DNA of 64,000 nucleotides from Leucobacter aridicollis (GTDB lineage: Bacteria; Actinomycetota; Actinomycetes; Actinomycetales; Microbacteriaceae): contig NZ_CP075339.1 of the NCBI RefSeq assembly GCF_024399335.1, forward strand, positions 1,302,001-1,366,000, given 5' to 3'. Position 1 is the first letter of the stretch. Every line of letters begins with the position of its first letter. This document shows, piece by piece, positions 14,587-23,595 of the stretch. The translations under genes and the position numbers were made by a program. The notes beneath the pieces were generated by a model. The model did no database searches and was not told the DNA's origin. It worked only from the letters and a program-made list of their open reading frames with translations.

Positions 14587-14609
14587 GCGACGTCGTGGGG
14601 CTGCGTCCG

Positions 14610-14646
14610 GCTGCGCTTGGCCCGAGTATCGCGGGCCGAGCGCAGC
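14610..14646. terminator. Terminator hairpin shared by MFS and HxlR genes
   Basis: GCTGCGCTTGGCCCG (14610-14624) pairs with CGGGCCGAGCGCAGC (14632-14646), 15 pairs with one position that is a U-G wobble on the plus strand and an A-C mismatch on the minus; loop of seven. No U-tract. Confidence 0.6.
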
Positions 14647-14700
14647 TACGCCGTCCGGCCGCCAGGCTTCCTGCTCGAAGGGCGGGGAGGACACCTGGAG

Positions 14701-15651
14701 CTAGGCGCCAGACAGGTCGACCTCATGACCACGAACGGTGGCTCGGCAATGGTCGCACACAAGCACGCCACGGAACTCGTCGCCACACGTTTTGTGAGTG
14801 CGCTTCAATACCGCGTCGTCTGCTGGGCTGCGCCACCGCTCGGACCAGTCAACTACCACAGCAAGCACGGGGAACAGGTCGCTACCCTTTCGTGTGAGAC
14901 GGTACTCCGACCAGTCCGGCCTATCCGTCAGCTGTACCTGTTCGAGGATCTCGCGGTCGCAAAGTGCTGCAAGCCGCTCGCTCAGCACAATCGGTGGTGG
15001 CCCGAGGAACGCCTCGAAGTCGCGGAACCTGCGCACGCCTGCGAACGCTGCGGCAACGATGACCGCTGACCACCGATTGCCAAAGACAGTCATTGTGTCG
15101 GGGTAGAACGCTGACGACTCGGTCCGCCCTCCGCGAGTGGCGCGCCGACGAGTCTGTGCGCCTGGAGTTGACCGGGCCCAGCCTCCGGCGGGGCCCCATG
15201 ACAGGGAAACGTTCTCGGGGCAGGCTTCTTCGCCGCATGAACGGCAGCAGTAGATAGGTGACATTTCCTTGCCGCACGTCAAGTGGCGGATCGGGGGAGT
15301 CGCATAGCTGTGTGAAGTCACCCACCTGCGCTCCCACGTCCAGATTGCGAGTAGAAGCTGCCAAATCGAGGAACCCTTGGGGGTGAGAAGGTACTCCGAC
15401 CGCGCTGGCCGGGCTTGATAGATGTGGCGCTCGAGGAGGCCCTCGTCGACGAGCCGTTCAAGCCTTCCACTGAGCACCGCGTGAGATATTGGCATGCGAT
15501 CGCGAAAATCTGAATATCGCGTCGCGCCTGAGAGCGCCACACGGAGCAGAAGCAAAGTCCATTCGTCGCCGAGCAGACCGAAAGTGACACCCAGGCTGTT
15601 TGGCTCGAGCGTTCCCGATTTCGAAGCACTACTGCTGGCCGTGTGGGTCAT
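14701..15651 (-). CDS. Tandem HxlR-type regulator with duplicated cysteine tails
   Basis: A 316-residue protein, about twice the usual HxlR length, made of two HxlR winged helices: residues about 18-115 (FGLLGDEWTLLLLRVALSG, SHAVLSGRLERLVDEGLLER, RSEYLLTPKG) and about 182-280 (FGNRWSAVIVAAAFAG, VLSERLAALCDREILEQ, WSEYRLTRKG). Each is followed by a matching motif: H123-x2-C126-G-x8/9-C-x2-C139 and H286-x2-C289-G-x9-C299-x2-C302, which looks like a zinc-ribbon tail. Such tandem HxlR proteins often control thioester catabolism genes. The leaderless promoter faces the acyl-CoA ligase operon, which is a plausible target. DNA partner and ligand unknown. Confidence 0.85.
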   Translation of the reverse strand: MTHTASSSASKSGTLEPNSLGVTFGLLGDEWTLLLLRVALSGATRYSDFRDRMPISHAVLSGRLERLVDEGLLERHIYQARPARSEYLLTPKGSSIWQLLLAIWTWERRWVTSHSYATPPIRHLTCGKEMSPIYCCRSCGEEACPENVSLSWGPAGGWARSTPGAQTRRRATRGGRTESSAFYPDTMTVFGNRWSAVIVAAAFAGVRRFRDFEAFLGPPPIVLSERLAALCDREILEQVQLTDRPDWSEYRLTRKGSDLFPVLAVVVDWSERWRSPADDAVLKRTHKTCGDEFRGVLVCDHCRATVRGHEVDLSGA

Positions 15652-15657
15652 GGCTTT

Positions 15658-15663
15658 AGGTTA
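15658..15663 (-). promoter_or_regulatory. -10 box TAACCT (minus strand) of a leaderless promoter
   Basis: On the minus strand TAACCT, six bases, then ATG at 15651 of the tandem HxlR gene. Confidence 0.65.
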
Positions 15664-15730
15664 CCGCCAGGGGTGCGGCGCGTACTAGAGGGATGGACCT
15701 GCGCGGTGATTGACGCAAACCCTTGCCTCA

Positions 15731-15752
15731 CTCTGTTAACTGCAGTAACCTC
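15731..15752 (+). promoter_or_regulatory. Shared operator copy 1, upstream of the ligase-thiolase operon
   Basis: The element begins CTCTGTTAACTGCAGTAAC and is centred on an imperfect TAACT-NN-AGTTA inverted repeat. It lies 75-96 bases before the ligase ATG. Near-identical elements sit before two other genes of the island. It is flanked by an outer inverted repeat AACCCTTG (15718-15725) and CAAGGGTT (15758-15765). Confidence 0.6.
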
Positions 15753-15826
15753 TCGTTCAAGGGTTCGCGGACATCGGCGTCTTCGCGCCCCGTACGAGCG
15801 CTACCGGACCGGCAAGGAGGCCACCG

Positions 15827-17587
15827 ATGAACACACTCGCAGGCGGACTGCATGAACAATCACGCGTCGACGATTTTGTATCGAGAGGATGGTGGACAAG
15901 CGAAACGATTGACGGACTCTTCTGGCGGCAGGTCGAAGAACGCTCGGCGGAACTCGCCGTTGTCGACCCGCTCAATCGGGTGTCCCTCGACGGTGAGGCG
16001 CCGCGTCGGCTCACCTGGGGCGAGGTCGGTGCCGAGGTTGCCTGGCTCGCGGCGCGGTTTCTCGAACATGGAGTGCAGTCGGGTGATGTGATCGGCATGC
16101 AGCTTCCGAACAGTATCGAACAGCTTGAGGTCTATCTCGCCGCGTGGACCATCGGCGCAATCGTCTCGCCCCTCGCGATGCAGTACCGGGAATTTGAGAT
16201 CACTAACGCCGCCAACGACGCGGCGTTTGATGCATACGTGTGTGGGGACAGTTTTGGGGACCGGCGTATGGCCGAGGAGATCTCTCAACTGCGTGAAGGC
16301 GTACCGTCTCTACGTGTTGTGTTCAGTATCGGTCGCGCTGAAGTTCCGGCGATCCCCGGAGTCATACGTCTCGCTCCGCAGCCGGCGGATGCGGACGAAG
16401 CGGTAGCAATCGAGGGTTTCCGAGCATCGCGCCCGAACGATCCGAATGAGTGCGTGACGATCTGTTGGACCTCGGGTACCGAAGGGCAGCCCAAGGGGGT
16501 GATGCGTGCGCACTACGACTGGTTGAGCTTTAGCTGGGCCGTGATCGACGCCCTGAAAGCGGCTGGCTCCCGCGATCAGGGAGGTGCCGGCGAGCTGCAG
16601 GAGCTCGGTGCTGACGACGTGCTCTTGAACCCGTTTCCGCTGATCAATATGGCGGGGGTCTGTGGATTCCTGTTGCCGTGGCTGAGGACCGGCTGCGTGC
16701 TCGTGCAGCACCACCCTTTTGACGGGCCCACGTTCTTCGCGCAGGTCGCCACTGAGCGAGTGACCTGCACGATTCTGCCACCTGCGTTGCTCTGGATGCT
16801 GCTGAACAACGATGAGCTCCTCGCCAAAGTTGATCTATCGAGCCTCACCCGCATCGGGTCAGGGTCTGCGCCACTGCAGCCGGCGATGGTGCGTGGGTGG
16901 CAGGAACGGTTTGGATTGCGAGTTATCAACTTCTTCGGCTCGAACGAGGGAGTGTCGTTGCTGTCGAGTGGTGAGGATTTTCCCGACCCCGACGAGCGGG
17001 CGAACTACTTCCCGAGGTACGGTGCCGAGGGCACAACGTGGGCGTCGCGCGTGTCAACGTGGGTGCACCACAAGCTTGTCGACCTCGAGACCGGGCAAGT
17101 AATCACTGAGAGCGGGCGCCCAGGTGAGCTGCACATCAGCGGCCCGCAGCTCTTCGGGCGCTATGTGAAGGCTGACAGCCTCGCGAACCCCTTTGATGAG
17201 GAGGGGTACCTGAAGACCGGCGATGTCTTTGAAATTGCGGGCGAGCGAAACCAGTTTCTGCGATACGTGGATCGAGCGAAAGACCTCATTATTCGCGGCG
17301 GCATGAACATCGCTCCGGCTTCCCTTGAACAGCTGATCACCGAGCATCCGGCAGTTCTTGAGGTTGCTGTCGTCGGTGACCCCGACGAGATGCTTGGTGA
17401 GCGCGTGGCTGCGATTGTCGTGCTCCGACCGGGAGCCGAGCTCTCACTCGACGAACTGGTCGAGTTTCTTCGTGCGCGCAAGATTGCGTCGTTCAAGCTC
17501 CCCGAGCGACTTGCGGTAATCGATGCGCTCCCGCGCAACCCAGTAGGAAAGGTGTTGAAGCGAGAGCTTCGACTTGCGGCCGTATAG
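15827..17587 (+). CDS. AMP-dependent acyl-CoA synthetase/ligase (ANL superfamily)
   Basis: A 586-residue adenylate-forming enzyme that would activate a carboxylic acid to its CoA thioester. Motifs in order: ITICWTSGTEGQPKG-type P-loop (seen as CWTSGTEGQPKGVMRAH, about residues 210-225), GSGSAPLQPAMV, INFFGSNEG, then YLKTGDVFE (A8 Asp), YVDRAKDLIIRGGMNIAP hinge and NPVGKVLKRELR carrying the catalytic Lys. AAGGAGG six bases before ATG 15827. It is followed 27 bases later by the thiolase. Length and text fit fatty-acid or cyclohexane/aromatic acid ligases; the actual acid is unknown. Confidence 0.9.
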   Translation: MNTLAGGLHEQSRVDDFVSRGWWTSETIDGLFWRQVEERSAELAVVDPLNRVSLDGEAPRRLTWGEVGAEVAWLAARFLEHGVQSGDVIGMQLPNSIEQLEVYLAAWTIGAIVSPLAMQYREFEITNAANDAAFDAYVCGDSFGDRRMAEEISQLREGVPSLRVVFSIGRAEVPAIPGVIRLAPQPADADEAVAIEGFRASRPNDPNECVTICWTSGTEGQPKGVMRAHYDWLSFSWAVIDALKAAGSRDQGGAGELQELGADDVLLNPFPLINMAGVCGFLLPWLRTGCVLVQHHPFDGPTFFAQVATERVTCTILPPALLWMLLNNDELLAKVDLSSLTRIGSGSAPLQPAMVRGWQERFGLRVINFFGSNEGVSLLSSGEDFPDPDERANYFPRYGAEGTTWASRVSTWVHHKLVDLETGQVITESGRPGELHISGPQLFGRYVKADSLANPFDEEGYLKTGDVFEIAGERNQFLRYVDRAKDLIIRGGMNIAPASLEQLITEHPAVLEVAVVGDPDEMLGERVAAIVVLRPGAELSLDELVEFLRARKIASFKLPERLAVIDALPRNPVGKVLKRELRLAAV

Positions 17588-17614
17588 CGGAGGCGTGAGC
17601 GATAGGAGGTGACT

Positions 17615-18808
17615 GTGGTTCGGGATGCTCTGATCTTCGACGCGGTGCGAACCCCGCGTGGACGTGTGCGTCGCGAGGGTGGAACGCTCTCGGACGTTCC
17701 TTCCTATGAGCTGCTTGCCGGCCTGCTCACAGAGCTGTCGCGCCGAGGGCTACCCGCCGAGCTTGTCGACGACGTCATTGTCGGTGTCAGCACCCCCGTG
17801 GGGGAACAGGGGGCTGACCTTGCGCGTGTCGCAATCTCAGCGGCTGACTGGCCTGACTCAGTCAGTGGCGGGGTGGTGTCTCGAATGTGCTGTTCGGGCC
17901 TTGACGCGATTGCGTCTGGCGCTGCGCAGGTGTTGAGCGGAGGCGGTGAGCTTGTTGTGGCTGGCGGAGCCGAATCGATGTCGCGAACGCCGATGTTTGC
18001 CGACAACCCGGCGTTTGCGCTCGACGAGAATCTCGCAGACGCGACCGGATTTGTGACGATTGGTGTGGCCGCCGATTTTATGGCCGCGCGATTCGGTATT
18101 TCACGCGCTGAACTCGACGATTGGGCCGTCCGCTCGCACGCGCTGTCGCTCACCGCGAGCGTCCCAGCATCGGTTGTCGCCGTCGAGCGCGATGGCGAGA
18201 CCTTGCTTGGGCGCGACGAAGGTGCGCGACCCGGACTGAGCGCGGCGGCACTAGCTGAGCTTCCCGCGCTCTGTGAATCAGACCCGACCTGGGAACGCGC
18301 CCTCTCGCGGTTCGCGTTTGAAGGTCTCGAAAGCGCACCCGCCGGTCGCCACACGGTTGCGACGGCGCCGCAGCTCGCTGACGCGGCCTCTGCAGTGCTG
18401 CTCGGAACCGCTGCGGGGGGCCATGCCGCAGGGTTGAAACCGCGGGGGCGGATCGTCTCTTGGGCGCATGCTGCGGTGCGTTCGCCGGGCCTGTGGGCCG
18501 GTGAACACGCAGCCAGGAAAGCTCTCGCCCGCGCAGAACTGGGCGTCGGTGACATTGCAGTGGCCGAACTCAACGAGTCGTTCGCAGTTACTCCAGTGTT
18601 GCTGGGGCGTCAGCTCGGCATAGCCCCCGACCTCGTCAACGCGTATGGTGGGGCGCTAGCGCTTGGTCACCCCCTTGGGGCGAGCGGTGGGATCCTGCTC
18701 GCGACGGCGATTGAGCGGCTCGGAGCGGTCGGGGGTGGCTACGGACTCCTCGTGATCCCAGCCGCGCTTGGTCTCGCGACCGCGGTTGTCGTGGAGGCGT
18801 TCGGGTAG
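17615..18808 (+). CDS. Thiolase-family protein lacking the C-terminal catalytic cysteine
   Basis: A 397-residue thiolase-fold protein. The nucleophile loop VVSRMCCSGLDAIASG keeps the acylated Cys (residue 92), the NESFAVTPVL motif is present, and the histidine loop NAYGGALALGHPLGASGG carries His352. The C-terminal motif, normally CxGGGxG with the second catalytic Cys, reads YGLLVIPAALGLATAVVVE, with no cysteine. Thiolytic cleavage or Claisen condensation through the classical two-cysteine mechanism is therefore doubtful. AGGAGG lies five bases before GTG 17615, which I prefer to the overlapping GTG at 17609. It follows the ligase in one operon. Confidence 0.85.
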   Translation: MVRDALIFDAVRTPRGRVRREGGTLSDVPSYELLAGLLTELSRRGLPAELVDDVIVGVSTPVGEQGADLARVAISAADWPDSVSGGVVSRMCCSGLDAIASGAAQVLSGGGELVVAGGAESMSRTPMFADNPAFALDENLADATGFVTIGVAADFMAARFGISRAELDDWAVRSHALSLTASVPASVVAVERDGETLLGRDEGARPGLSAAALAELPALCESDPTWERALSRFAFEGLESAPAGRHTVATAPQLADAASAVLLGTAAGGHAAGLKPRGRIVSWAHAAVRSPGLWAGEHAARKALARAELGVGDIAVAELNESFAVTPVLLGRQLGIAPDLVNAYGGALALGHPLGASGGILLATAIERLGAVGGGYGLLVIPAALGLATAVVVEAFG

Positions 18809-18858
18809 CGCACGGAGTGGGGCGGCACATTGAGGCATATGTATGCAGTAGTCGAAAG

Positions 18859-18881
18859 CTCTGTTAATTGAAGTTATTGAG
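18859..18881 (+). promoter_or_regulatory. Shared operator copy 2, upstream of the SCP2-type thiolase
   Basis: The element begins CTCTGTTAATTGAAGTTATT. It lies 24-46 bases before ATG 18905, between the two thiolase genes, so the second half of the cluster probably has its own promoter here. Confidence 0.6.
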
Positions 18882-18904
18882 TCCTGATTTGAAAGGAGCG
18901 TCGA

Positions 18905-20134
18905 ATGCCAGGGAACAACGTGTGGGTACTTGGCGGGTACCAGAGCGACTTTGCCCGAAACCTGAGTCGCGAGGGTCGCGGCCTTGCCGAGCTCACCGCG
19001 GAGGTGATCGACGGAGCGCTCGAAGGCGCCAAAGTTGACGCTGAAGAAGTCGGCGTAGTGCACGTCGGCAACGCGTTCGGGGAGCTTTTCGCCGACCAAG
19101 CGCAGCTCGGCGCAATGCCAGCGACAGTGCGAGAGTCACTCTGGGGTGTGCCGGCATCGCGCCACGAGGCTGCGTGTGCCTCGGGAAGCGTCGCCGCGCT
19201 CGCCGCGATTGCTGACCTTCGTGCGGGAAACTATGACGTCGCCCTCGTTGTGGGGGTGGAAGTCGAGAAAACAGTCTTAGGTGCGCAAGGCGCCGCGTTC
19301 ATGGGAACCGCGGCATGGACGGGGCATGAGGGCGAAAAAGCCACATTCATGTGGCCATTTATGTTCGCGGCTGTGGCTGACGAATACGATCGGAGGTTCG
19401 GGCTCGACGACGCACACCTGCGCGCCCTCTCGCAGCTCAACCTTGGCAATGCAAAACGCAACCCACTTGCGCAAACACGCGGCTGGGACGTGCCAGACCT
19501 TCTAGCTCACGGTACCGACGACGAGCTCAATCCACCAGTCGAAGGGCGTCTGCGGCGCTACGACTGCAGTCAGATGACAGACGGCGGAGCCGGAGTCGTG
19601 CTCGTGAGCGACGCCTACTTGCGCGATCACCCAAGGGCGCGGCCCCTCGCGCGGATCGCCGGCTGGGGCCACCGCACGGCTGGGCTCGGACTGAAGCAAA
19701 AGTTCGAGAAGAGCGCGGGGGAGCACTATGTGTTTCCGCATCTCAAACGCGCCGTTGACGAGGCGTTTGGCCGGGCCGGTGTCGACCTCACGATGTTGCA
19801 CGGCCTCGAAACCCATGACTGTTTTTCAGCAAGCGAATACGTCGCAATTGATCACATTGGACTCACCGCCCCCGGTGAGTCCTGGCGCGCGATTGAGGAT
19901 GGCTCGATTGAGCTCGGCGGGCGGTTTCCAATCAACCCAAGCGGCGGTCTCATCGGCGGGGGACATCCCGTTGGAGCAACGGGAATTCGGATGCTATTCG
20001 ATGCCGGAAAACAAGTGGCAGGTGCCGCTGGCGAGACGCAAGTAGAGGGAGCCGAGCGCTTCGCGACTCTGAATTTTGGCGGCTCAACATCGACAACCGT
20101 TTCGTTCGTTGTCGAAGCTGCTCCCGGCCGCTAG
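18905..20134 (+). CDS. SCP2/nonspecific lipid-transfer-type thiolase
   Basis: A 409-residue protein of the SCP2-thiolase subfamily. Nucleophile Cys91 sits in RHEAACASGSVAALA; LETHDCFSASEY carries the subfamily HDCF motif, and NPSGGLIGGGHPVGATG the histidine loop. The subfamily includes enzymes that cleave branched or steroid side chains and aldol-type relatives that need a DUF35 partner; no DUF35 gene is visible here. AAAGGAG lies six bases before the ATG. It is followed after 42 bases by the dioxygenase gene, probably in the same transcript. Confidence 0.88.
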   Translation: MPGNNVWVLGGYQSDFARNLSREGRGLAELTAEVIDGALEGAKVDAEEVGVVHVGNAFGELFADQAQLGAMPATVRESLWGVPASRHEAACASGSVAALAAIADLRAGNYDVALVVGVEVEKTVLGAQGAAFMGTAAWTGHEGEKATFMWPFMFAAVADEYDRRFGLDDAHLRALSQLNLGNAKRNPLAQTRGWDVPDLLAHGTDDELNPPVEGRLRRYDCSQMTDGGAGVVLVSDAYLRDHPRARPLARIAGWGHRTAGLGLKQKFEKSAGEHYVFPHLKRAVDEAFGRAGVDLTMLHGLETHDCFSASEYVAIDHIGLTAPGESWRAIEDGSIELGGRFPINPSGGLIGGGHPVGATGIRMLFDAGKQVAGAAGETQVEGAERFATLNFGGSTSTTVSFVVEAAPGR

Positions 20135-20176
20135 ATCAACTGCTTGTACACCCCAGGTCAAGAAAGAGGAAACACC

Positions 20177-21694
20177 ATGGACGTTGAAATTGTTGGACGA
20201 CTGCTCTCGACGCTTCCGGAGGAGGATGACCACCCCTACCGAACCGGCCCGTGGCGGCCGCAAACAACCGAGTGGAAAACAGACGACTTGGAGGTCGTCT
20301 CAGGTGAGATTCCACACGACCTCGACGGGGTGTACCTGCGCAACACTGAGAACCCTGTCCACCCGTCGCTGAAGAACTATCACCCGTTCGATGGTGACGG
20401 CATGATCCACGTTGTCGGGTTTAGAGACGGCACGGCGTTCTATCGCAACCGTATGATCCGTACCGACGGCTACCTCGCAGAGCAGGAGGCGGGACAGGCG
20501 CTCTGGGCTGGGATCGCCGAGAACCCGAAGCTCGCGTTGCGTGAGGACGGCTGGGGTGCCCGCGGCAGGATGAAGGACGCGTCGAGTACTGACGTCGTGG
20601 TCCATCGTGGGATGGCGCTCACAAGCTTCTACCAGTGCGGTGACATGTACAGGCTCGACCCGTTCTCGGCGGAAACCCGCGGCAAAGAAGACTTCAACGG
20701 CGCCTTCCCGTTCAAGTGGGGAGTCTCCGCGCACCCCAAGGTCGATGACAGGACAGGGGAGATGCTGTTCTTCAACTACAGCAAGGAAGCGCCCTACATG
20801 CACTACGGCGTGGTGGATCAGCAGAATGACCTCGTGCACTACGTTGACGTGCCGCTGCCGGGAGCGAGGCTGCCGCACGACATGGCGTTTACCGAGAACT
20901 ACGCGATCCTGAACGATTTTCCGCTGTTCTGGGACGAGGAGGCGCTCAAGCACGGTCACCATGCGGCCCGGTTTCACCGGGACATGCCGAGCCGATTTGG
21001 CGTCATCCCGCGGCGCGGACAAACGAGCGACATCCGGTGGTTTGAGGCCGAGGCAACCTACGTGCTGCACTTTGTCAATGCCTACGAAGAAGGCGATGAG
21101 ATTGTCATTGACGGGTTCTTTCAGGGGGACCCAGAACCGAAGGACACGGGTCAGGGGAGCAAGTGGGAACGCGCATTTAGGTTCCTCGCCCTTGATCGGA
21201 TGCAGGCGCGGCTCCACCGTTGGCGACTCAACCTCGTCACTGGCAAGGTGCGTGAGCAGCAGCTGAGTGACACGATCACTGAGTTTGGCATGATGAACGG
21301 AGACTTCCAGACCGATGACTATCGTTACGCCTATGCGGCGACAGGGAAGCCAGGGTGGTTTCTGTTCGACGGTCTCGTGCGGCACGACCTCAAGACCGGC
21401 AGCGAGGAGAGATACAGCTTTGGAGATGGTGTCTTTGGGAGCGAGACTGCTGTCGCTCCGAAGGTGGGTGGCACAGCCGAAGATGACGCATATCTTGTCA
21501 CGATTATCAGTGACATGGCTGCGGACGCCTCGTACTGCGTCGTGTTCGATGCTGCTCGCGTGAGCGATGGGCCGGTGTGCAAGCTCAAATTGCCCGAGCG
21601 AGTCTCGAGCGGCACCCACTCGACCTGGGCTGCCGGTGCGGAACTGCGCCGCTGGCGAGAGGACGATAACGCTGCGTCTGCGGTCGGTCTGTAG
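20177..21694 (+). CDS. Carotenoid-cleavage-dioxygenase-family oxygenase (lignostilbene dioxygenase-like)
   Basis: A 505-residue seven-bladed propeller oxygenase. The four iron-binding histidines are identifiable: His186 (VSAHPK), His234 (RLPHDMAF), His298 (YVLHFVNAY) and His481 (SSGTHSTW). The N-terminal GVYLRNTENP and HPFDGDGMIH are strong family signatures. Members split a carbon-carbon double bond with O2, giving two carbonyl products. Bacterial members act on apocarotenoids, stilbenes or 4-vinyl/propenyl phenols; context with an acyl-CoA ligase and thiolases suggests a phenylpropanoid- or terpenoid-like substrate, which is inference. ATG 20177 follows AAGAGGA and removes an implausible upstream extension. 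Confidence 0.9.
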   Translation: MDVEIVGRLLSTLPEEDDHPYRTGPWRPQTTEWKTDDLEVVSGEIPHDLDGVYLRNTENPVHPSLKNYHPFDGDGMIHVVGFRDGTAFYRNRMIRTDGYLAEQEAGQALWAGIAENPKLALREDGWGARGRMKDASSTDVVVHRGMALTSFYQCGDMYRLDPFSAETRGKEDFNGAFPFKWGVSAHPKVDDRTGEMLFFNYSKEAPYMHYGVVDQQNDLVHYVDVPLPGARLPHDMAFTENYAILNDFPLFWDEEALKHGHHAARFHRDMPSRFGVIPRRGQTSDIRWFEAEATYVLHFVNAYEEGDEIVIDGFFQGDPEPKDTGQGSKWERAFRFLALDRMQARLHRWRLNLVTGKVREQQLSDTITEFGMMNGDFQTDDYRYAYAATGKPGWFLFDGLVRHDLKTGSEERYSFGDGVFGSETAVAPKVGGTAEDDAYLVTIISDMAADASYCVVFDAARVSDGPVCKLKLPERVSSGTHSTWAAGAELRRWREDDNAASAVGL

Positions 21695-21736
21695 CCTTCG
21701 GTCTACCTGCCATCGCACGGAAGGGCGCTGCGGGGT

Positions 21737-21768
21737 GAAGGGGGCCTTCTCGTGGGCCGGCCCCCTTC
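21737..21768. terminator. Terminator hairpin between dioxygenase and flavoprotein genes
   Basis: GAAGGGGGCC (21737-21746) pairs perfectly with GGCCCCCTTC (21759-21768) around 12 bases. It lies between convergent stops at 21694 and 21772. Confidence 0.6.
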
Positions 21769-21771
21769 CGG

Positions 21772-22758
21772 CTACCGCGACTGTGCGCCTGCGGTTCTCG
21801 CGAACAGGCGTTCGGACGCGGCTCGGTACTCGGCGCTCAGCGTTTCGACAACAGCGGCAGTGGGTGTGACAGCGTCAATGATCTCAATGCCCTGACCCGC
21901 TGCCCAGATGTCACGCCACCTCCCCTGGACGTTGCCTGCCGCGTTGTAGTTTGGTGCGTGACCAGCTGGGTGAGCGTTGGAAATGTCGATTCCGTTGGCT
22001 TCAAGGCTCGGCCGCAACCACGAGGCGTTCGCACCAGTGATGGCTGCCGTCACGACGAGATCGTCGGCCCCGTGCTCGACGACCATCTCCTTGTATGCGC
22101 GAGGTGCCATGCTCTCTTCGGTGGCGAGAAACCGCGTGCCAACATAGACAAGGTCCGCTCCGGCAGCGATCGCGCCGGCGACGCCCCAGCCGTCGCCGAT
22201 ACCTCCGCCAATGATCACTAGGCCGCTGAAGAATTCACGGACGCCCGAGACAAAAGCAAAAGGTGAGAGGTGGCCGGTGTGGCCGCCCGCCCCTGCGCTC
22301 ACACAGGCCAGTCCGTCGGCGCCGGCAGCGACTGCCTTGCGTGCGAGGGCGATGCTGACGACGTCAGCGACGACTATCCCGCCGTAGGCGTGGACCGCCG
22401 CGATGACTGGGGCGGGCGAGCCAAGGGCGGTAATCACGATCGGGGGCTTGTGCTTCGCGAGGATTTCGATGTCAGCTGAGAGGCGCTCGTTGCTGCTGTG
22501 GGTAATGAGGTTCAGCGCCCACGGGGCGGGGGACTCGCCCTGGGCCCGCGCCTCGTCAAGACGGGTGCGAATCTCCGTCAACCACTGGTCGAGTTGCCCT
22601 GGGGTTCTGCAGTTGGGGGCTGGGAACGCTCCGATCGCTCCCGCCCGGCAAGTCGCGACGACGAGGTCGGGGCCCGAGATGAGAAACATCGGAGCCGCGA
22701 TCACGGGTGTCACGAGCTTCTGCACGACGTCCCGGTGGAATGAGTCTCTGTTGAACAT
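21772..22758 (-). CDS. Nitronate monooxygenase / NMO-like FMN enzyme
   Basis: A 328-residue TIM-barrel flavoprotein. Family text includes VIAAPMFLISGPDLVVA at the N-terminus, ADVVSIALARKAVAAGADGL, the FMN loop SAGAGGHTGHLSPFAF with the catalytic-type His, IIGGGIGDGWGVAGAIAAGADLVYVGTRFLATEES. Such enzymes oxidise nitronates, or act as enoyl reductases in related branches. AAGGAGG lies just before ATG 22758, so I prefer it to the in-frame ATG at 22776. It lies downstream of the TetR gene on the same strand and carries operator copy 3, tying it to the island. Confidence 0.85.
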   Translation of the reverse strand: MFNRDSFHRDVVQKLVTPVIAAPMFLISGPDLVVATCRAGAIGAFPAPNCRTPGQLDQWLTEIRTRLDEARAQGESPAPWALNLITHSSNERLSADIEILAKHKPPIVITALGSPAPVIAAVHAYGGIVVADVVSIALARKAVAAGADGLACVSAGAGGHTGHLSPFAFVSGVREFFSGLVIIGGGIGDGWGVAGAIAAGADLVYVGTRFLATEESMAPRAYKEMVVEHGADDLVVTAAITGANASWLRPSLEANGIDISNAHPAGHAPNYNAAGNVQGRWRDIWAAGQGIEIIDAVTPTAAVVETLSAEYRAASERLFARTAGAQSR

Positions 22759-22771
22759 GCGCCTCCTTGCG

Positions 22772-22793
22772 CTCATTGCTTCAGTTCACAGAG
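22772..22793 (-). promoter_or_regulatory. Shared operator copy 3, upstream of the flavoprotein gene
   Basis: Read on the minus strand it begins CTCTGTGAACTGAAGCAATG, matching copies 1 and 2 at CTCTGT-N-AA-Y-TG-M-AG. It lies 14-35 bases before ATG 22758. Confidence 0.6.
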
Positions 22794-22856
22794 TAAGCCT
22801 ATCGCGTTGACGGCTCTGTCGACAGTGGTCACGAAGCGCTTGGGCGAGGCGGCTCG

Positions 22857-23537
22857 TCAGTGACGAGCGGGGCCCGGCTCGCCAGCCGCGACGAGCCCAG
22901 CAATGAGAGCCCTGAGGCCAAACTCGAAGGTCTCGACTGTCACAGTTGTTTGAAGCTCTGCGGCGTGCGCGCTCGCACTCTCTTCAGCGCTCGTGAGGTT
23001 TGGAGCAAGCTCGGGGTTGTTGACCGGGCGGAGGTTGTCGGCCGGCGCCAATGAGTCGAGCGCTGAGCCAATGACGAACGATTCGATCGCAACGATGGCG
23101 GGCACAATCCGCTTCTCGGGGTAGCTGTCGCGGCGCATTGCTGCGGCGATTCGCTCATAATCAATGATTGATTCTGGCTCATCGTCGACGGGCATAGTCG
23201 CAAGAGCGGCGATGATTCCCGGGTGCGCCCCGAAGGTGTCACGGTATGCCCGAGCCCAGTCTGCGATCGCGACGTGCCAGGGGCGCGATTCAAAGCCATG
23301 GTCGCCGACGCGGCGGGTGAGTTGACCGCGCATGCCAGCGATGAGCTCGTCCTTGCCCGCGAAGTAGTGGTGCAGGGCCGACGGGCGGACCTCGAGATTT
23401 CGGGCAAGTGCAGCGAGAGTGAAGTCGCCACCTTTCACGTCCGCGAGTTCAAAAGCGGCGGCGAGAATTCGCTCTCGCGAGAGGATCGCCTGGCGCGGTC
23501 GGCCCGCTGGCCTGTGGGCTTCTGGCGCCGTTGTCAT
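22857..23537 (-). CDS. TetR-family regulator, probable regulator of the catabolic island
   Basis: A 226-residue regulator. The N-terminal HTH is at about 18-65: SRERILAAAFELADVKGGDFTLAALARNLEVRPSALHHYFAGKDELIAGM. The C-terminal domain is of the TetR_C type with a helical ligand pocket and an Ala/Ser-rich insertion. It sits between the flavoprotein gene and the divergent amidohydrolase, in the middle of genes that share a palindrome-like element, so it is the best candidate for the protein that binds it; this is inference. ATG 23537 begins MTTAPEAHRPAGRPRQ; a longer frame upstream lacks signals. Confidence 0.88.
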   Translation of the reverse strand: MTTAPEAHRPAGRPRQAILSRERILAAAFELADVKGGDFTLAALARNLEVRPSALHHYFAGKDELIAGMRGQLTRRVGDHGFESRPWHVAIADWARAYRDTFGAHPGIIAALATMPVDDEPESIIDYERIAAAMRRDSYPEKRIVPAIVAIESFVIGSALDSLAPADNLRPVNNPELAPNLTSAEESASAHAAELQTTVTVETFEFGLRALIAGLVAAGEPGPARH

Positions 23538-23561
23538 TGCACATCCTTCTTCTGCGGGGTT

Positions 23562-23595
23562 GCAGACCTTATTGAATCTGCGTAAATTAAAGTTG
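23562..23595. promoter_or_regulatory. Divergent TetR/amidohydrolase regulatory region with a weak fourth operator
   Basis: GCAGA (23562-23566) and TCTGC (23577-23581) are inverted around ten bases, and AAATTAAAGTTG (23584-23595) matches the core AAYTNNAGTTR of the shared element. This lies between TetR (start 23537) and the amidohydrolase (start 23647). Confidence 0.4.

Follow-up and report, generated by a model that had tools for sequence, protein, structure and literature searches.

An asymmetric 18-bp element at three promoters of a Leucobacter aridicollis catabolic unit: probable operators of a fused HxlR-type regulator

Three promoters of a catabolic unit of Leucobacter aridicollis share an asymmetric 18-bp element. 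The unit lies in a 64,000-nucleotide stretch of the genome (contig NZ_CP075339.1, positions 1,302,001 to 1,366,000; hereafter, the window), and the three elements are very probably operators of the fused HxlR-type regulator encoded at 14701-15651, which would block RNA polymerase until an inducer releases it. The hxlR gene, located at the left end of the unit and divergent from the ligase gene, did not figure in the original prediction, an earlier note in which an operator-like element shared by these promoters was described. The elements and their proposed reader are as follows (compared loci and genomes are designated by L and G numbers, respectively).

15730 to 15747, plus strand: operator 1, ACTCTGTTAACTGCAGTA, upstream of the ligase gene and divergent from hxlR (pattern match and matrix)
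18858 to 18875, plus strand: operator 2, GCTCTGTTAATTGAAGTT, upstream of the SCP2-thiolase/dioxygenase operon (pattern match and matrix)
22777 to 22794, minus strand: operator 3, ACTCTGTGAACTGAAGCA, upstream of the flavoprotein gene (pattern match and matrix)
14701 to 15651, minus strand: fused (tandem) HxlR-type regulator of 316 amino acids, proposed reader of the operators (PF01638, two stretches)

The pattern CTCTGTKAAYTGMAG has three exact matches in the 3,604,182-base genome, all at the three promoters of the catabolic island, where approximately 0.015 matches are expected from the base composition; the reversed pattern has no exact match in the whole genome. This uniqueness is post hoc, as the pattern was drawn from the three sites themselves, and a weight matrix was therefore built from other genomes only (nine sites, all from other Leucobacter genomes). 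With this held-out matrix, the three sites rank first, second, and third in the window at 30.1, 27.2, and 25.2 bits, respectively, and the next candidate scores 12.8 bits. The original prediction had placed the element at 15731, 18859, and 22793 (minus strand), in the noncoding gaps preceding the ligase, SCP2-thiolase, and flavoprotein genes; both the coordinates and the noncoding setting are right. When up to three mismatches to the 18-mer were allowed, 14 matches were obtained in the genome: two of the three sites are exact, the third has one mismatch, and the remaining 11 have exactly three; the reversed control yielded 18. The three sites span only 7.1 kb, as would be expected if they had arisen by chance or if one promoter segment had recently been duplicated within the genome, but their flanks are mutually unlike, which speaks against such a duplication, and the element is kept across genera of several orders. 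We therefore regard such an origin as exceedingly improbable.

Conservation within the genus was examined in promoter alignments and in a scan of 54 genomes, the scan allowing one mismatch to the operator. The catabolic unit, as recognized by its oxygenase gene, is present in five of the 54. Operator 1 is kept in all four other Leucobacter loci that have this promoter (L056, L057, L058, and L106) and operator 3 in all three (L056, L057, and L190), while operator 2 is kept in two of the four loci with this gap (L056 and L057). In promoter alignments, the operator stands out as a conserved block inside otherwise diverged gaps. The scan yielded nine matches in seven genomes, and eight of the nine lie in pathway loci; the operator-bearing pathway genomes are the five with the oxygenase and G329, which has a ligase/flavoprotein remnant. 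The ninth match (G316, one mismatch) has no cluster gene within approximately 1.5 kb. The operator is thus present in 5/5 oxygenase genomes versus 2/49 others (Fisher p = 7e-6, relatedness not corrected for). Retention before orthologous genes bears out the earlier view of an operator-like element marking a small regulon composed of a ligase, two thiolases, a dioxygenase, and a flavoprotein. In the remnant (L190, G329:C66, positions 1-520, at the contig start), a ligase fragment runs into a flavoprotein fragment with operator 3 upstream, which may represent either a decayed cluster or an assembly join.

Linkage of the element to the regulator extends well beyond Leucobacter. The best 80 of 182 fused-HxlR loci (one genome per species, scanned with an alignment of the fused HxlR) include Leucobacter, Nocardioides, Pimelobacter, Aeromicrobium, Mumia, Humibacillus, Janibacter, Terrabacter, Sciscionella, Nocardia, Streptomyces, Mycobacterium, and others. 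The oxygenase (at least 60% identity) was found in 71 of these loci, and in 68 of the 71 it lies within 150 bp of the fused HxlR gene; at a threshold of at least 55% identity, the SCP2-thiolase, ligase, and flavoprotein were found in 64, 11, and 9 loci, respectively. The conserved form across genomes is the 18-mer ACTCTGNTANYTGNAGTA, which was read from promoters of some of these 80 loci, so that its counts rest partly on their own source. In the 1.26 Mb of the 80 loci, it has 64 matches with at most one mismatch and 20 more with two; the corresponding numbers were 0 and 5 for the reversed control and 0 and 0 for a first-order Markov resample of the same 1.26 Mb. It is present in 62 loci at up to one mismatch and in 70 at up to two, and 75 of the 84 matches lie within 400 bp upstream of the start of a pathway gene or hxlR (nine are elsewhere). 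In 12 whole genomes of the set (approximately 68 Mb), picked for spread, 14 matches with at most one mismatch were found, every one of them inside the fused-HxlR loci; the reversed control gave three.

Variations on this arrangement were seen in several genera. Many mycobacteria retain only the SCP2-thiolase, the oxygenase, and the regulator in the linked set, and mycobacteria with divergent SCP2-thiolase and oxygenase genes carry back-to-back half-sites, TTGACAGAGTnACTCTGTCAA (L130, L133, L142, L158, L168, and L175). Mumia, two Humibacillus strains, and Janibacter have paired operators approximately 27 bp apart, the second being the variant ACACTGTTAATTGAAGTG, upstream of a gene for an ATP-binding cassette (ABC) transporter ATPase of the branched-chain-amino-acid type (L116, ~15500; L120, 15081-15125; L121, ~15450; and L122, from 14839). 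The ATPase was recognized by Pfam in Mumia and by 65-69% identity in the others; the best match of the Mumia ABC gene in the window is just 26%.

The regulator itself was matched by PF01638 in two stretches with 122.5 bits, against a gathering score of 20.8. It contains two winged-helix domains in one chain, each followed by an H-x2-C-x9-C-x2-C motif, and the eight motif residues are invariant in 56 aligned sequences including that of the window (56 of the 120 proteins listed); these two modules are possibly zinc-binding. A structural model (pLDDT 88.1, pTM 0.86) has the winged helix-turn-helix (wHTH) fold of the family. The fused form constitutes a large group with 472 homologues, and for each of the 120 listed the alignment spans at least 91% of the query.

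The shape of the operator is compatible with a reader of this kind. The original prediction had described a TAACT-NN-AGTTA inverted repeat, of which only part stands: the outer ACT/AGT is in inverted arrangement, and the rest of the 18-mer is asymmetric. The first half, ACTCTG, is nearly fixed, and the second, NTANYTGNAGTA, is more variable. The self-complementarity of the piece of each window site chosen by a symmetry score is 0.60, 0.61, and 0.50, respectively, and this weak symmetry speaks against a simple palindromic operator. An inferred sigma-70-type core promoter was read by eye around operator 1.

15723 to 15751, plus strand: inferred core promoter at operator 1 (-35 box TTGCCT at 15723-15728, 17-bp spacer, -10 box TAACCT at 15746-15751)

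At the clearest promoters, the operator occupies the 17-18-bp spacer between the -35 and -10 boxes and ends inside the -10 box. In the 80 loci, 58 of the 64 matches with at most one mismatch run into TAnnnT, with T at the sixth place. A long-frame start codon follows TAnnnT after 6-7 nt in 38 of 48 matches, a count made on the forward strand of L123-L183 only and with a slightly looser pattern (one more match lacks TAnnnT).

From the observed sites, their conservation, their genomic linkage, and this promoter geometry, we infer binding by the fused HxlR, repression, and the nature of the inducer as follows. Two non-identical winged helices in one polypeptide would act as a covalent pseudo-dimer, and a pseudo-dimer of unlike halves would fit an asymmetric, non-palindromic site. 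Bound to the spacer and the -10 box, the protein would block RNA polymerase, and an inducer, probably a pathway intermediate, would free the promoter. Operator 1, lying in the divergent hxlR-ligase gap, could also mediate autoregulation of hxlR. Repression appears likeliest because the operator takes up the whole -35/-10 spacer and extends into the -10 box, and overlap with the -10 box is the usual position of a repressor. The fused HxlR might instead bind and activate, with the site serving as a spacer element that aids RNA polymerase: HxlR of Bacillus subtilis is named in PMC7835342 as a formaldehyde-dependent activator, so that the sign could be reversed, and most mycobacterial sites have no clear -35 box by eye. 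Activation is nevertheless unlikely, given that the clearest promoters already have a spacer of 17-18 bp and that the site overlaps the -10 box in the manner of a repressor. The position at promoters, ending in a -10 hexamer, would also suit a promoter of an alternative sigma factor that contains no operator at all. Conservation is unbroken over 18 bp including the spacer, however, rather than confined to two boxes, and no sigma-factor domain was detected when 20 neighbouring frames from six loci, a partial sample, were profiled; we give this explanation very little credence.

Another candidate reader in the window is the TetR-family protein encoded to the right of the unit, to which the original prediction had assigned control of the three elements and of a weaker fourth copy (23584-23595) beside its own gene. 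The relevant features are as follows.

22857 to 23537, minus strand: TetR-family regulator, assigned to the neighbouring amidohydrolase-transporter module and outside the regulon
23571 to 23589, plus strand: distinct conserved site ATTGAATCTGCGTAAATTA, proposed TetR operator, in the tetR-amidohydrolase gap; outside the regulon

In the window, L056, and L057, tetR is a neighbour of the catabolic genes, as such control would lead one to expect. The weaker copy, on the other hand, scores 7.3 bits and ranks 24th with the held-out matrix, i.e. it is background that overlaps the end of the different conserved site ATTGAATCTGCGTAAATTA, which has a single match in the genome at up to two mismatches. 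Among 32 tetR-amidohydrolase gaps, ATTGAATCTGCGTAAATTA is exact in 24, has one mismatch in four (28/32 at up to one), three mismatches in three, and five in one, whereas the regulon operator occurs in none of the 32, the closest sequence having five mismatches. A TetR homologue is present in 44 long stretches (the window included and short TetR loci uncounted), of which 32 supplied these gaps; in the 12 left out (L043, L045, L047-L050, L052-L055, L099, and L101), TetR identity does not exceed 44%, and the neighbouring amidohydrolase gene is lacking, broken, or approximately 30% identical. In L046 and L051, which are more distant relatives, the TetR site is a perfect palindrome, TTATTTAAT-GGC-ATTAAATAA.

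Linkage leads to the same result. The right end of the window locus encodes the TetR, the amidohydrolase, and a NhaC/DctM-type transporter, and this set recurs in 26 further genus loci among the stretches compared; 24 of the 27 loci (window included) have no catabolic gene within the 7.7-19.9 kb compared. Conversely, TetR is near the fused HxlR in only one of the 80 loci, the other 79 having none in stretches of up to 17 kb. In G325, the catabolic genes lie on L058, whose HxlR side has no TetR or MFS gene within the stretch compared (the opposite side is cut off by the contig end), and a TetR homologue lies on a separate contig, L096, from which the catabolic genes are absent. In five of the genomes with the TetR-amidohydrolase-transporter set (G299, G313, G332, G336, and G345), the TetR match contains a stop codon. 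Judged by gene neighbourhoods, the TetR-amidohydrolase-transporter set is a module separate from the catabolic unit. TetR was rejected as the regulator because of operator divergence and missing linkage, and we consider its control of the three elements very improbable.

Several observations weigh against assignment of the elements to the fused HxlR or limit its reach. L058 lacks the operator at the SCP2-thiolase promoter, as does L106, where this gap is short. The reversed control in the genus scan also gave nine matches, in nine genomes; since this equals the real total, the genus evidence resides in where the matches lie and not in their number. In a separate scan of stretches, L098, which lacks the cluster, has a one-mismatch match to the 15-mer, and the fragmented metagenome-assembled genome G328 has a 57% identical HxlR and a 90% identical oxygenase on different contigs. 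The Leucobacter flavoprotein and SCP2-thiolase promoters have a poorly matching -10 box. The 80 loci are related, so that their counts are not independent, and the linkage is correlational. Ten of the 80 have no match at up to two mismatches: L166, L182, and L183 begin inside the first pathway gene; L130, L133, L144, L152, and L168 have diverged back-to-back half-sites with at least three mismatches; and L107 and L111 have no RPE65-type oxygenase, SCP2-thiolase, or ligase at the thresholds used. In L114 and L127, the matches are not upstream of a recognized pathway gene.

With these points taken into account, we lean slightly towards a wider proposal, namely a widespread actinobacterial regulon in which an HxlR-HxlR pseudo-heterodimer would read one asymmetric 18-bp operator inside core promoters, frequently those of leaderless mRNAs, and control one conserved pathway. 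As part of the same proposal, the pathway would combine an alkene-cleaving RPE65-type oxygenase with a coenzyme A (CoA) ligase, an SCP2-type thiolase, and a flavoprotein, to which some genera would add an ABC importer of the branched-chain-amino-acid type. A specific operator and a set of targets can thereby be predicted for the large fused-HxlR group, so that binding, sign, and inducer become open to direct tests. The identity of the inducer would point to the substrate of the oxygenase-thiolase pair, which is conserved from Leucobacter to environmental mycobacteria.

The genes of the unit in the window, and the interval missing from a close relative, are as follows.

15827 to 17587, plus strand: AMP-binding acyl-CoA ligase (PF00501, PF13193)
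17609 to 18808, plus strand: acetyl-CoA C-acyltransferase-type thiolase (PF00108, PF02803; TIGR01930 above cut-off)
18905 to 20134, plus strand: SCP2-type thiolase (NF004936, 674.2 bits, cut-off 375)
20174 to 21694, plus strand: RPE65/carotenoid-oxygenase-family dioxygenase (PF03055, 417.9 bits)
21772 to 22776, minus strand: nitronate-monooxygenase-family flavoprotein (PF03060, 105.2 bits)
14602 to 22873, no strand: unit missing from the close relative G301 (L078), flanks aligning at 82% and 88%

Among the proteins of the unit, the oxygenase is the best conserved, with 97, 94, 92, and 90% identity in four relatives; the ligase, thiolases, flavoprotein, and regulator show approximately 67-87% identity in L056-L058. 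The candidate iron ligands of the oxygenase, His 187, 235, 299, and 482, are invariant in five Leucobacter proteins. In G301, 51 bp separate the two flank alignments where the window has the 8.3-kb unit. The GC content is 62.6% inside the unit versus 65.7-65.9% outside, and a tRNA scan for an integration site found no tRNA in the window. A search of 398 genomes of the family at E 1e-45 returned the fused HxlR of the window only, the ten genus genomes displayed not including the other four that bear the cluster. Because the fused HxlR is rare in the family and frequent in distant actinobacteria, the catabolic unit may stem from a donor outside the family. In L057, L081, and L087, the MFS gene to the left of the unit occurs as two tandem copies, which are 87-88% and 56-57% identical to that of the window.

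The HxlR family is well established, and databases contain fused HxlR proteins in number, but the operator and regulon are apparently undescribed: no paper on either was found among the best matches in titles and abstract starts of open-licence PMC articles, nor was an assigned role for the oxygenase-thiolase pair found among the matches listed from the open-licence PMC literature. With respect to known enzymes, the dioxygenase resembles carotenoid cleavage oxygenases and lignostilbene dioxygenases (PF03055) in its family score of 417.9 bits and in its four His, which align with those of a lignostilbene dioxygenase. It falls under the curated cut-off of all three lignostilbene/apocarotenoid NCBIfam models matched, with scores of 234.7 versus 800 bits and 195.1 versus 650 bits for the lignostilbene dioxygenase models NF053778 and NF053780, respectively. 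The positions of the phenol-binding Tyr and Lys of lignostilbene dioxygenases are occupied by other residues here. Lys135 and Tyr103 are named for the enzyme of PMC6097328, and Rv0913c is named as a putative cleavage oxygenase in PMC5133782.

The present system resembles the KstR type in being a small catabolic regulon close to a tetR gene, but the TetR protein here has a different conserved site and belongs to a separate conserved module. KstR-type regulons are catabolic regulons controlled by TetR-family proteins. HxlR, HypR, and YodB of B. subtilis, known members of the HxlR/DUF24 family (PF01638), are single-domain chains that dimerize, as opposed to the two wHTH domains per chain found here, and PA1607 and PA1374 of Pseudomonas aeruginosa (2f2e and 4gcv, 'putative transcription factors') are likewise single-domain chains. 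B. subtilis HxlR has the N-terminal sensing Cys11 of the thiol-sensing subgroup, whereas in an ungapped hand alignment the fused HxlR has Asn18 at this place in the first half and no Cys at the corresponding place in the second. Unlike HxlR, HypR, and YodB, each half of the fused HxlR ends in an invariant H-C-C-C motif, and its predicted site is asymmetric.

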